From Monoplex corrugatus (Eukaryota; Mollusca; Gastropoda; Littorinimorpha; Ranellidae): 64,000 nucleotides of DNA. The notes below the pieces were generated by a model. It saw only the letters and a program-made list of their open reading frames with translations, was not told the DNA's origin and did not search any database. The stretch is taken from positions 40,802,857-40,866,856 of the forward strand of contig CM060308.1 of assembly GCA_030674185.1 (NCBI GenBank), given 5' to 3'. Position numbers and translations under genes: made by a program. This document shows, piece by piece, positions 6,301 through 12,300 of this stretch (position 1 is its first letter; each line of letters opens with the position of its first letter).

Positions 6301-9300
6301 CTGAGCACGGAGATGTTATCTTGACAACTGAGAACATCATTTATTGCTTTTGCCATTTACATGGTCAGGCCATGTCTGGTGAAGAATGTGGCTATTTCCA
6401 GCTGGCTGCCATGGAGCCTGGCAGTCAGATGAGTTGTCGTCGTCCATGTCTCCTGTCACTTCATTTGATAAAAGAGGGTTAAAACTACTGTACATTAATT
6501 TATCCTTTGCATTGAAATTTCTTACACATTAAACTTTTGAAACTGCGCATGATTAGAATGAAGATTGACATTGAAATAACTCGGTTTCTTAAGGGACATA
6601 CTAAACGGATAACTAGGGTTAAAAAAGTCACTGAGTGCTATGCTTTGTTGCTAAAGAGAGAGAGTATTTCAATTGAGCAGGCAAGTGTCTGATTGTATCA
6701 GCTGGATGTGAAATCTGTCTTCTTGTCATGATGTCTGACATACCCTAGTGAATTCTGTTGCTTGAAAGGTGGGTTCCATTTGCTTGTTTGAAATACTGTC
6801 TTCATCAGTACATGCGGCTACTTCTGTGTTATTGCAGAAAAAGTTTGCTGTAATGATTTTACTGTGTACTTTGTAGATTACTGGGGGAAAAGTTTGTTGT
6901 AATGATTTTACAGTGTACTTTATATGTTTCTTTTGATTTTTTCCTGTTTTAATCACTGGTGGGTCTTTACAAGTATTGAACATAATACTGTGTAGATTTG
7001 TTGAAATAACATCTTCTTCTGAAATTCATCTGGAAAACATTTTTACATTTGGTATATGTTGAATTCAATGTGGGAAAGCAGGGGTATACTTAGATTTTCA
7101 GAAATAACTGCCTTCTGCTGAAATGCATCTGGAAACAGTTTGACATTAGTTGTTCAGTATGGGAAAACAGTGGTATATTTACTACTGGGTTGCTGGTTGC
7201 AGAATCAGAGAATGAGCTGCATGTTTTCGGGAATTTCATTATGAATGTGAATCCATGTGATGTCCATCTGAAGGATTGCAGTAATGTAGTATCCTTCAGG
7301 CTGAACGTTCAGATTGTCTCTGGCACAGGCTGGAGAACTTTTCTCTGATGATGAAATTTCAGAAGCAAGCTGGTGAGAAAAAGAAACAGTTTGGAAAATG
7401 AAAATAGTCCACAGTTTATTTCTGCAAAGTTTACATCTGATTCTTTAGGAAAAAAAAGGTCAGCAAGCACATTTTGACTGAAAATATTTGAGCAGGACAG
7501 TATTTACCTGCAGATAGGTGCAACAGTTTCTGTGAGGGCCATTTTATGTATCTTTAAGATTTGCATTCTTTTCTTGTCATAATTAGTTCTGCTTTTCACT
7601 TTGACTTCTGTAAGTGCCCTCCTATGTATCTTTAAAATTTGTACTGTTTTCACATCAATAGTAGTTCTAGTTTTCATTTCAGGATCACTGCTCACTTGCA
7701 GTTGTCAAATTGGTATATTTACCCCTGCCCGTTGAGTTCTAGACCCTTGACGATGGTCTGATTTCAGAAATTTTCTTGTCAGAGAATTCCTCAGTCTGTT
7801 GTTGTAGCTTGATGCAGACTGTGGAACAAGCAGTGCACTGCGGTTTCTGCTGGAGAGAATGAATGTTCGAACTGTGACCAGTGAGTAGTGTGTTTCCACA
7901 GCCTCGTTAATTGCAGGTTCCTGAACAACTACTGTGTTTCACTGGATGAAATTAAGCCTGCACATTTATATTCTGCTTGATTGCAGGTAGTGAAACAATT
8001 TTACCTTGAATGAAATCAACTTGGACATCTCTGTCTGTGTCCTGCCTGTTTGCAGGTAGCAGAGCGAGCATTGTACTACTGGAATAACGAATACATTCTG
8101 AGTCTGATCAGTGACAATGTAGACACGGTTCTACCCATCATGTTTCCAGCTCTGTATAAAACCAAACAGCACTGGAATAAGTAAGCCCTCTTCCCTGGGC
8201 TGTTGTACCTTATCTCTTTTTGTTCACATGCATGTGTTTTCATGCCTGTAAACGTTTGCTATGTGTGTGTTGCCTTTCTGTGTGATTGTATGTGTGGCAT
8301 TGGTAACTGTGTACTTTCTTGTTTATGTCATTTAAGTCATTTGTGCAGAGCGAGAGTAAATATAGTTAAGATAATCATTAATAGTATTCTTTTTTATTCT
8401 TTTAGAGTTCGGTAACTTAGAGAGTTGTATTATGAACAAGAATATGTGTCTACATTACTGTTGGAAAAAAAGAATGAAACTTCATCCTTTCCACTCTGAT
8501 GTGCTTTTTTATCAAGTGAAAATACCTGGGGGATTGGGGAAAAGATATTAATCATAATGCTAAAAAAGGTTTGGTCTTTTTTCTTTTGAGAGGAAGTGAG
8601 TTGGTTCTTTAAGTGCTCTTTGTTAAGCTTTTCAGAAGATTGGGTCTTGTCTACTGTTGTAAATTGATTCCAGTTTCTGCACTCCTCTGTGATAGTAAAG
8701 CTCTAAGAACAAGTTACATAGCATCAGATCTACAGTCAGGAAAAGATAGGTTACTTTGAGTTTGATTGTATGTCAGTTATATGCTAGCTACTTTGTGTTC
8801 CAGGAGTTACAGTGGCTTGTGTGTGTGTGTGTTATATCCAGTTTTTCATGATGCTGAACTAAAACTTATTTTTGAATGTCAGCTTGTATTGATTTCATTG
8901 ATGTCACAAGTGAGATCAATTTTGCTACGCTTTGTTTTTGTTTGTCCACTGACAACTGCATTTGGTGAATGCATGGGAGTTTCTTTCAGCTTACATTGTA
9001 CATTTTTAACCCTTTCCCTTCAAACACAATATTTCACTCTCCAGATGTTAAACCTTTCCCCTGGACCTGTTATTTAACATAGTATTGCCTTCTGCAGCTG
9101 GTCCCCTGTTTTTAAGTTGTGAGGTAATTTGATTGGTATTGGCAGCTTTCTAAAAGGAACGAGGGTGGTAACTGCTAAAGATCATGATAATGTTTCATAC
9201 AGGCCCATAGAATGTTTGAGAAGCATCCAGTCAGACACGAATGAATAAGGGATGGCTTGGAAAAAGACTAATGTGCATCTGATGTGTTGACTATTCAGAG

Positions 9301-12300
9301 TGAAAGGGTTAAGATTGTACATAAATCTCGGTGTATTCTTGGCATGCTGTTACAACTTTGACTTTTTTCTTATGTTTAGTCATTTCCACTGGGTGAACAA
9401 ATATTATGTTTTACAGCACAGTCATCATTGTATCCTGCAACTGCTGAGTTTTGCAGTATTTACTGTATGTGTTTGTTTGGAGATTATAGTTTGTTTAGAG
9501 ATTGTAGTCAAATGGGATAGTTGTTTTCAGCCTGATGCTTGAGTCTTTGTCATTTCAACACATTATGGAATAAGTACAAGAGTGAAGAAGAAAGTCAGTA
9601 TGCCTCAACCCTTCAATAGACAGAAAATAAGAACAACCTTGTGCAAGGTCTAACAGCACAGTTTGGTTATACCTGGTCCAGGAGCTTGTGGTGATCTTCA
9701 GAGACAGATAATAGTGTTTGTGTGTAGACATGTAATGGTAAATGTTTATTTCACGTCATGAACAGGTGATTATGTTTCAGGGGCTCTGTGTGTGACGATG
9801 AAACTTGTGCCGTCAAAATTTAACCCTCTGACTCCCGCACCCTATCTGCCATCTAAAACCTTAAGCCTTTGACTCCCTCACACTATCTGCCATCTTCCTG
9901 CAGGAAGCTGGTGGTGGATAGGGTGAGGGAGTCAAAGGCTTATGTTTTTGCTTTGCTAGCATGGTTGACAGCACAGGATGTTGGTCGACAAGGTGCGGAA
10001 GTTAATGGGTTAGATTTCTGTCTTGACTGCATATTTATGTCAACAGAGTACCAAGAGCAGTCAAAGAAAATCTTACACCAGTAAAACAGAAGAGGTCATT
10101 TCTGTTCTCTGTGATGTGGGCATTTCTTGATCTTTATACGCGCAGTTGCTTGTCGTCTTCGTTAAAGAAATCTTTTCTTAAAGATTTCATTCACAAATTT
10201 TAAGATAATATTAGGCTTTCACATACAACAAGATTGGACTCTGCAAACAATAGTCTATACCTTTTCAGTTGAAATGGCCGAAGACCGACACCAGGTTTAG
10301 ATTTGATCTACTTGAGGGGATTTCTATAGATGTAATAGCAATGCTGGACAGTGCTTTTGTGTTATAGTTGAAGTGCTGTTACGGTGTTGTCTGTTCTGTT
10401 CTGGTCACCACAGGTAGCGGAGCGTGCGCTGTATTTTTGGAATAACGAATACATCTTGAGTCTCATCAGTGACAATGTGTCCAGCGTTATGCCCCTCATG
10501 TTCCCCGCTTTGTACAAAAGCAAAGAGCACTGGAACAAGTAAGACTTCACCCTCCTGCTTTACCCTTGCTTTGTTCTGACTCCTTGCCTTACTCTTTTCT
10601 GTCCTCTAATTCCACTTTTTTTTTTTTTAATCTTTAGTTTTAAACAAGAGAGAGAAGTCCGTCCTGTCTGTTTCAGTTGTTTGGGGTGAATTTTTGAAAA
10701 AATTGGGGTGAGATGATTTCTTGGCTGCTTTTTGAAGGAAAATTTCTTGGCTGTTTGTTGAAGGACTTTACACATTTTGGTGACTTTGACTCACATTTTG
10801 GGTGATTGGCGTTTTATTCATAGGTCTTTTTCAGTTTTAAGCTAAGAAAGCATACATGTAAGTGGACATAGCCAAGTCAGGAATTTTTAAAACCTGAACA
10901 TTTTTAGGAGGACTCTGTTTTACAAGGAGGGAGGGAGGATGATTGTTGCTTATTTTAGTGTACCTTGTTTCATATGATGGATGGAGGTTATTGAAAGTAA
11001 CTTACACATTTGAATGGTGAACATCATTTTTATCTGTGTGTGTTAAACGGTTGTTAAATATGAAACGGTGCCAGTTGTTAAAATCTTTGTACATATCTCA
11101 GCTTTGTAAAGTTGTATAAATACAGTTACCAGGAGAGCCTGATGTTCATTATAAGCCCTAGTGATTAATATTTAATCTGTTGTAATAACTTATTAACCCT
11201 TTGACTCCCACACCCTGTCCACCAACTGCAGAAACTTAACCCTTTGACCCCCTCACCCTATCCACCAGCTTCCTACAGGAGGCTGGTGGATAGGGTGAGG
11301 GATTCAGAGGTTAGGTTTTTGCTTTGCTAGCATGGTTGATAATGCAGGATGCTAGTGGTTAGGGTGAGGGAGGCAAAGGGTTAACTGCGTATTATGCACA
11401 GTGTATTTTGTGTGTTGTTTCCTGCCTTTCTCCTTATTTGGAGGAGGAGGCTGATTCTGATACAGCAATAGTTTAAATGGTTACACTTAAAAAATGTATC
11501 TGCTTATGAACAAAGTATGTTGTGGTGAATCAGAACATCTTGGTTATTTACTGTGGATCAGATTTTTATATCCAGTCCAGTGAAAAATAGAAAATGTTTC
11601 AGTCTAGATGAATCTGATTCAGTGTTAGGCAAGAGAAAACCAGTTTGTGAAAATGTTGATACAAATCATCAAAGTTGTAAAAAAAAATGTTGATACAAAT
11701 CATTAAAGTTGTAAACAGATATTGGCCAGTTATCAGTTCTGCTTATTATATAATATAGCATGAGAATTTTCCATGGCAATTTCCGCTGATGTGACTCCGG
11801 AAGGTGTTTTGAGATCAGTGTATGTCGAGAAGGTATGGGGCTGTATGTATGTGGAGGTATTTTGGGGTGCAAAATAGGTAGAGCTTGGATCATCATTTTA
11901 TCGTCATTTTGTTATTAGAGAGGTAACTTCCAGTTTGCTTTGAAATCCAAGATGGTTTACATGATACATGGCTAACAACAGGAGAAGTAATCAGACTTCT
12001 CTGTAGAATGCTGTTTATGAACTATGTTTAATACTATATTTTTGTTGAAATGTTCCGCTAAATTATGGAGAATGGGAAAAATTTGGTCTCCTAGACCAAT
12101 CCATTGGTGAAAAATAAGTGGAACTGGAAGTGGCTGGCAAAATTGAAGATTACTTTGTCTTTATTCCATGGTAAAGGCTTTGGTAGTTGTGAATTGGAGA
12201 TCAGAAGTGGGAGGTACCATTGACAAGATCAGCCAGCCTGGGCAAGTTGTAGCATCAAATGCAGAAGCTGAGAAAAAAGCGACCATTGCTCACAACAGAT

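Follow-up and report, generated by a model that had tools for sequence, protein, structure and literature searches.

Tandem-duplicated mutually exclusive exons are a known kind of alternative exon. In the B56 (PPP2R5) regulatory subunits of protein phosphatase 2A (PP2A), specificity is attributed to separate genes and to termini that vary while the core is nearly fixed. Here we analyze a window of 64 kb from the genome of the gastropod Monoplex corrugatus (C4:40802857-40866856 of a 3.02-Gb assembly), the plus strand of which carries a B56 gene with two homologous exons, A and B, coding for the same stretch of that core. With a probability of about 0.88, we consider that they arose by an ancient tandem duplication and form a mutually exclusive pair in a gamma/delta-class B56 gene. 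According to the first-pass annotation of the window, such an exon choice is not known to have been described for B56 genes, and we likewise found no account of one in the open-access literature that we searched, subscription papers and supplements being outside its scope. A term search of the main text of a survey of human mutually exclusive exons (PMC5740500) gave no mention of PPP2R5 or PP2A, and one of the main texts of two papers on tandem exon duplication (PMC9741552, PMC9013439) gave none of PPP2R5. Within this literature the pair would be the first such report for B56, although both isoforms already exist in databases as automatic, numbered variants.

Among the closest described systems, exons 4a and 4b of OGDH also arose by an ancient duplication of a coding exon and give isoforms that differ in that stretch, and the choice between them alters a regulatory property of the enzyme subunit; OGDH differs from the locus described here in that its intervening intron is short and its branch points are distant, lying close to the 5' splice site upstream (PMC7969005). 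Within the B56 family, alternative splicing is known to diversify a single gamma/delta-class gene, B56gamma of human and Xenopus, which has a B56delta-like N-terminal exon 1a/1b and alternative C-termini (PMC2257934). Whereas it is the termini that are exchanged in B56gamma, the alternation in Monoplex is between two homologous exons and affects a segment within the conserved HEAT-repeat core. The same part of the protein, namely residues 405-413 of B56alpha and the helix 374-386, has been studied in human B56alpha and B56gamma, where EPVA versus TKHG is a difference between paralogous genes (PMC6398977), while here it would be one between splice forms. Finally, the PPP2R5D mutation E420K alters signalling, with holoenzymes still forming at a lower level (PMC7952134), and E420 aligns with residue 3 of both exons; E420K is however a disease mutation and not a natural switch, and A and B both have E at this position.

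Exon A (8056-8180) and exon B (10414-10538) lie on the plus strand and are separated by a GT-AG intron of 2,233 nt (8181-10413). Each is 125 nt long, is preceded by AG and entered in phase 0, consists of 41 codons plus AA followed by GTAAG, and continues in frame into the exon at 15785, so that direct reading and translation bear out the lengths, phase, AA/GTAAG ends and frame given by the first-pass annotation. The encoded peptides, VAERALYYWNNEYILSLISDNVDTVLPIMFPALYKTKQHWN for A (Y, NV, TKQHWN type) and VAERALYFWNNEYILSLISDNVSSVMPLMFPALYKSKEHWN for B (F, SKEHWN type, with no difference from the peptide of Nucella lapillus P0183), are identical at 34 of 41 residues. The substitutions DT/SS, L/M, I/L, T/S and Q/E had been listed correctly before, and together with Y/F they make up all seven that exist, every one of them mild. 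Both exons match positions 318-359 of the Pfam B56 profile PF01603 (E 1.9e-14 for A and 5.7e-14 for B), with scores of 53.9 and 52.4 bits for a cut-off of 25 bits.

At the nucleotide level, A and B differ at 25 of 125 sites (7 at first, 4 at second and 14 at third codon positions) and in 21 of 41 codons, 14 of these silently. Nonsynonymous and synonymous divergence (dN and dS) amounts to 0.097 and 1.61 by NG86, and to 0.067 and 2.24 by YN00, where dS is rough and near saturation owing to the few codons. The likeness of the two exons is not due to chance, since 100 of 125 sites match, against 52 in each of the runner-up in the window, the best reverse-strand match and the best match of one shuffled window. 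No third copy was found in the 64-kb window by tblastn with both exons up to E 100. Beyond 3 nt before and 5 nt after the exons, the flanks of A and B give weak blastn matches only (E at least 0.16), and because the flanking introns are unrelated outside the splice sites the duplication must be old. An acceptor-like TTGCAG/GTAG is present 69 nt upstream of exon A (7981-7990); its use would reach a TGA, and it may be a decoy.

The reading frame bears directly on exclusive use. The choice is framed by two constant exons on the plus strand, VMFLNELEE...CVSSPHFQ (4438-4557) before it and KTIHGLIYNALKLF... (15785-15886) after it, and splicing from 4557 to either A or B and then from 15785 onward leaves an open C-terminal part of 303 residues. 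When A and B are joined, the frame reads ...HWNK and then meets TAG at the junction (AAG TAG), and when neither is included (4557 to 15785) it stops after 21 codons. Only an mRNA with one of the two can therefore make B56, as had been claimed from the outset; a paralogue on C12 repeats the same logic, and two other contigs each carry full-length gene models with A alone and with B alone (see below). The assembled isoform B matches human B56delta (E 1e-130) and B56gamma (E 5.8e-130), and the window gene has gamma/delta-type features unlike those of the alpha/epsilon type, namely HWNKTIHGLIYN after the exon and an RRKSELP tail; the class names are those that we take to apply from these alignments. 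Outside the exon, the nearest proteins among the matches listed are P0161 (92%), P0178 (91%) and Nucella P0183 (90%), relatives that point to a gastropod.

A search of the whole assembly with PF01603 gave 31 matches among the best-scored candidates, which we grouped as four B56 genes and one stray piece. Two genes are of gamma/delta type, the window gene (C4, about 40.79-40.83 Mb) and its paralogue (C12, 39.05-39.07 Mb), and two are of alpha/epsilon type (C4, 76.1 Mb; C12, 23.2 Mb). In the latter the segment is present once each, in an exon that continues past HWN (VAERALYFWNNEYIMNLIEEN...SKEHW) without a GT at the exon end. The C12 paralogue of the window gene has both exons: A2 (39063035-39063159) shares 113 of 125 nucleotides with A and 102 with B, and B2 (39064929-39065053) shares 114 with B and 99 with A. 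One residue differs between A and A2 (dN 0.010, dS 0.62) and one between B and B2 (dN 0.010, dS 0.65). Since A2 resembles A and B2 resembles B, both nearly unchanged in both genes, the tandem pair predates the gene duplication. The first-pass annotation had proposed long selection on both exons, and these values agree: judged from the sequences, A and B are under strong purifying selection in both gamma/delta-type genes. In the paralogue, translated over the pair and the two exons that frame it, joining A2 to B2 leads to a stop 14 codons past HWNK, and skipping both also leads to an early stop. A further copy at C4:93778256-93778381 on the minus strand was rejected as a gene, being a 649-bp piece of window 8039-8686 (98.6%) that adjoins a run of N; it is probably a misplaced assembly fragment, and the N run explains the 5,884-residue open frame reported for it. 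Both B56 classes occur as C4/C12 pairs, a pairing that suggests chromosome- or genome-scale duplication in this lineage.

The search for paired exons in other molluscs that had been proposed turned up both types, at the level of protein models rather than DNA. Among the best 120 of 5,651 matches to isoform A, 17 have a segment of 42 instead of 43 residues, and we also examined the best 120 of 1,526 and of 1,801 matches to exon segments of A type (P0082) and B type (P0070), respectively. In the 244 proteins collected, the 42-residue segment occurs 128 times, in 56 distinct forms; these proteins come from a database clustered at 90% identity, where isoforms of the same gene usually merge and the absence of a type from a species has little meaning. 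Classified by four residues, 128 single-segment rows (including the two from the window and leaving out P0123) comprise 25 A-types, 101 B-types and 2 mixed forms. All 35 distinct B-types have E at position 38, and 18 of 21 A-types have Q there, in classes that are partly defined by this very position; in a class-free count of distinct forms, Q38 goes with T36 in 17/17 and S36 with E38 in 31/31, and the others combine T36 with E38 (5) or with G, H or L (1 each). Cooperia oncophora P0124, which has two copies in one model, was rejected as an exon pair, as it repeats most of the protein and is alpha/epsilon-like; together with P0091, which ends after HWN, it was excluded from the position-38 counts and from the tree described below.

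Some pairs of models differ by the exon. P0135 (isoform X4, A-type) and P0187 (isoform X3, B-type), of 589 residues each, are identical outside it, as are P0215 (A-type) and P0197 (B-type), of 588 residues each; the first two appear to share a contig of 56,616,397 bases and the second two a contig of 1,064,772 bases. P0129 (from a species whose name starts with 'Mag') and P0164 (551 residues each) also differ only in the exon and lie on different contigs, and in Nucella lapillus one model is of A type (P0131) and another of B type (P0183), again on different contigs. In Tegillarca granosa P0123, A is followed by B in one predicted protein, in the order of the window and with 12 extra residues between them, which we read as a prediction error. 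On the contig of 1,064,772 bases, P0215, P0197 and P0196 differ from P0219 and P0071 in an earlier short stretch, SFIYETERHSG versus SFIYETGRHNG, perhaps a second duplicated exon, or else an allele or an artefact.

Named A-types among the matches listed come from Batillaria, Solemya and Lymnaea (molluscs), Watersipora, Paralvinella, Dimorphilus, and Hymenolepis and Rodentolepis (tapeworms, with F at position 8), and named B-types from Mya, Mytilus, Crassostrea virginica, Lottia, Pinctada and Ridgeia; the lineages of Ridgeia, Paralvinella and Dimorphilus (annelids) and of Tegillarca were looked up. As both types are present in annelids and in molluscs, the exon duplication probably predates the split between them. 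A tree was built from 57 distinct 42-residue forms together with 13 that were kept, by manual thinning, from the 52 43-residue forms. In it, exon A of the window falls inside a supported set of 21 A-types and one mixed form (97/91), exon B groups with P0161, P0178 and P0182 (98/85), and the 43-residue forms separate with weaker support (88/73). A and B have in common the loss of one residue with respect to the 43-residue forms, which fits a deletion before the duplication.

By alignment, the exon corresponds to B56alpha 367-408, gamma 342-383 and delta 418-459, near the end of the B56 core, and includes the helix at B56alpha 374-386. The seven A/B differences fall at alpha 374, 389, 390, 392, 394, 403 and 405. 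Of these, alpha 374 corresponds to exon position 8, where A has Y and B has F. Alpha 405 corresponds to position 38, where A has Q and B has E, and is the first residue of the EPVA/TKHG loop, which adjoins the catalytic subunit (PMC6398977). The other three loop residues, K, H and G (B56gamma-like), are encoded by the exon junction and the constant exon: the equivalent of gamma K384 is split over the junction into 15785-15886, and this exon encodes those of H387, G388, Y391, L394 and M398. In human cells, the changes E405T, P409K, V412H and A413G shift B56alpha from centromeres to kinetochores, with less binding of Sgo2 and more of LxxIxE proteins (PMC6398977). Because the swapped exon holds both the helix alpha 374-386 and residue 405, which in human B56alpha bear on the preference for shugoshin versus LxxIxE proteins and kinetochores, its position suggests that the swap might tune the partner choice of B56. 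The first-pass annotation had suggested an effect on holoenzyme or substrate preference, which would here be narrowed to the B56 specificity loop. We regard it as reasonably probable that the swap makes some functional difference, and as doubtful, from sequence comparison, that it changes shugoshin or LxxIxE preference in particular. B56gamma residues Y391, L394 and M398, altered in the deltaSgo1 construct (PMC6398977), have their equivalents in the constant exon. A list of five hSgo1 contact residues (PMC8256288) has a numbering that disagrees with the B56alpha numbering used here; its match by spacing alone to gamma Y375, H387, Y391, L394 and M398, three of which agree with the deltaSgo1 construct (PMC6398977), is a lead only.

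The two exons might also be used exclusively and yet give proteins that are alike, the pair being kept because each exon is tied to its own expression pattern. This alternative deserves serious weight, even if we think it somewhat unlikely. The mildness of all seven differences in the window gene speaks for it, as do the residues matching B56delta E420 and B56gamma Y375, identical in both exons. Structure prediction points the same way: in the AlphaFold models of P0135 (A) and P0187 (B), with a mean predicted local distance difference test score (pLDDT) of 70, and of about 60 in the loop, the helices are near-equal, and the main difference near the exon would lie in a low-confidence inter-helix loop, in or beside which positions 36-42 are placed. 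A helix that is longer in the B model (419-436) than in the A model (419-432) is not relied on; compared with known structures, the A model matches those of B56, the best by E-value being 8u1x, 9mip and 3fga. On the other hand, gastropods, bivalves and annelids alike retain the diagnostic A/B residues, with positions 36 and 38 the most constant, whereas the 43-residue forms vary between S, T, N and A at the place that corresponds to 38, and a single residue has changed per exon between the two genes of this genome.

Turning to how exclusive use may be achieved, every mRNA that codes for B56 would contain exactly one of A and B, double inclusion or double skipping being spoiled by the frame shift and an early stop. 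It is very likely that both exons are used, and used exclusively. In our view trans-acting splicing factors would decide between A and B at the acceptors, and nonsense-mediated decay would clear away the two unproductive products. The introns are GT-AG. Steric exclusion between A and B is unlikely because the intron between them is 2,233 nt long. A distant branch point of the OGDH type is not supported, given this intron length and the nearest upstream AGs, which stand 40 nt before the acceptor of B and 65 nt before that of A. No RNA family reached its gathering score in 4558-15784. Exclusion by competing RNA structures, as in Dscam, would call for conserved docking and selector sequences in the introns. 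Between the introns of the window gene and its paralogue, no 13-mers are shared upstream of A and none between A and B; downstream of B there are 9, with 7 in a reversed control, and a loose match between the two genes reaches 24 nt upstream of B.

Regulated double inclusion or skipping could instead be the very purpose of the pair, yielding unproductive mRNA and so setting the level of B56. The early stops given by both events in the window and C12 genes are in line with such a dosage switch, which we nevertheless consider improbable: a poison exon needs no two distinct, peptide-conserved coding exons, and the site of the stop is not conserved, lying at the A+B junction in the window gene and further on, 14 codons past HWNK, in the paralogue.

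Inverted-repeat (hairpin) elements are present in the A-B intron (9825-9949) and related ones downstream of B (11193-11384), and RNA structure might enforce exclusion if the inverted repeats 9855-9951 and 11228-11319, whose 97-nt arms on either side of B are 81% complementary, paired and looped out B so that A is used. The repeat core, CCTTTGACTCCCTCACCCTATC, has nine matches in the window with at most 3 mismatches and none in 100 shuffles. This is nonetheless a very remote prospect, as the elements also fold on themselves and recur elsewhere in the window, B2 of the paralogue was not found to be flanked by such a repeat pair, and the two genes have no 13-mer in common in the intron ahead of A or in the one that separates A from B. 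The family, seen again at 28127-28148 and 36967-36988, resembles a short inverted-repeat element. Least credible of all is that just one exon functions, its partner being a silent duplicate or an assembly artefact, given the strong purifying selection on both exons in two genes, their unrelated flanks, and the recurrence of both types in other molluscs, where both are annotated as isoforms.

Several points weigh against an ancient, mutually exclusive and functionally distinct pair. That both exons are used in this species is something we infer from sequence. A cis-acting exclusion mechanism was not found, the introns of the window gene and its paralogue sharing nothing detectable but splice sites and repeats, and the 40 kb examined around the C12 paralogue did not yield its final two coding exons. 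The database gene models are automatic, the shared contig of each isoform pair is deduced from equal size and equal flanks, Tegillarca granosa P0123 formally represents double inclusion, and the A-type P0215 has H, not Q, at position 38. No single annelid has both types among the matches listed from the clustered database. In the tree, the B-types do not form one clade and need two changes, while an approximately unbiased test did not reject a single clade for A (p 0.201) or for B (p 0.176); with 42 columns and an unsettled bootstrap, its branching order is unreliable. As for function, just one of the four EPVA loop residues, Q/E, is inside the swapped exon, and in human cells the EPVA loop by itself failed to convert B56gamma (PMC6398977).

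The remainder of the gene follows the same strand. Ahead of the constant exon at 4438, the window contains the exons IINGFALPL...DPSLTEQ (209-371, with AG/GT borders) and VIMGLLKFWPKVHSPKE (2505-2555), and upstream of the window there are 7 more exon-like matches to Nucella P0183. Downstream of 15886 come EKEKTKQRDEAWTKINTLAKGNPQ (16433-16505), FRNLKTET...EAEAKD (17591-17719), a C-terminal exon that was picked from a mechanical candidate list and is backed by similarity to Nucella P0183, and the last coding exon, LKKKPRDKPLLRRKSELPHD... (27187-27336, stop at 27334-27336), with the gamma/delta-class tail. Nine other open frames in the window were scanned against Pfam and gave no match. The plus strand also carries, at 58581-58921, an open stretch made up of TKSLEQTKSLKQ-like repeats.

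A conserved splice switch inside the B56 core, near the catalytic subunit, would provide a natural minimal-variant pair, differing in this species at 7 of 41 residues, that could help to find which residues set the partner choice of B56. A bolder possibility, which we think unlikely as matters stand, is that in lophotrochozoans the exon choice of one B56 gene, by resetting the helix and the loop, sets shugoshin/centromere versus LxxIxE/kinetochore binding, as vertebrates do by separate genes. If true, splicing rather than paralogues would give PP2A two mitotic or tissue-specific addresses, by means of a pair older than the annelid-mollusc split and retained in both copies after gene duplication. 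More generally, the pair suggests that PP2A of molluscs, and perhaps of annelids, has a layer of regulation that is not visible from work on vertebrates.

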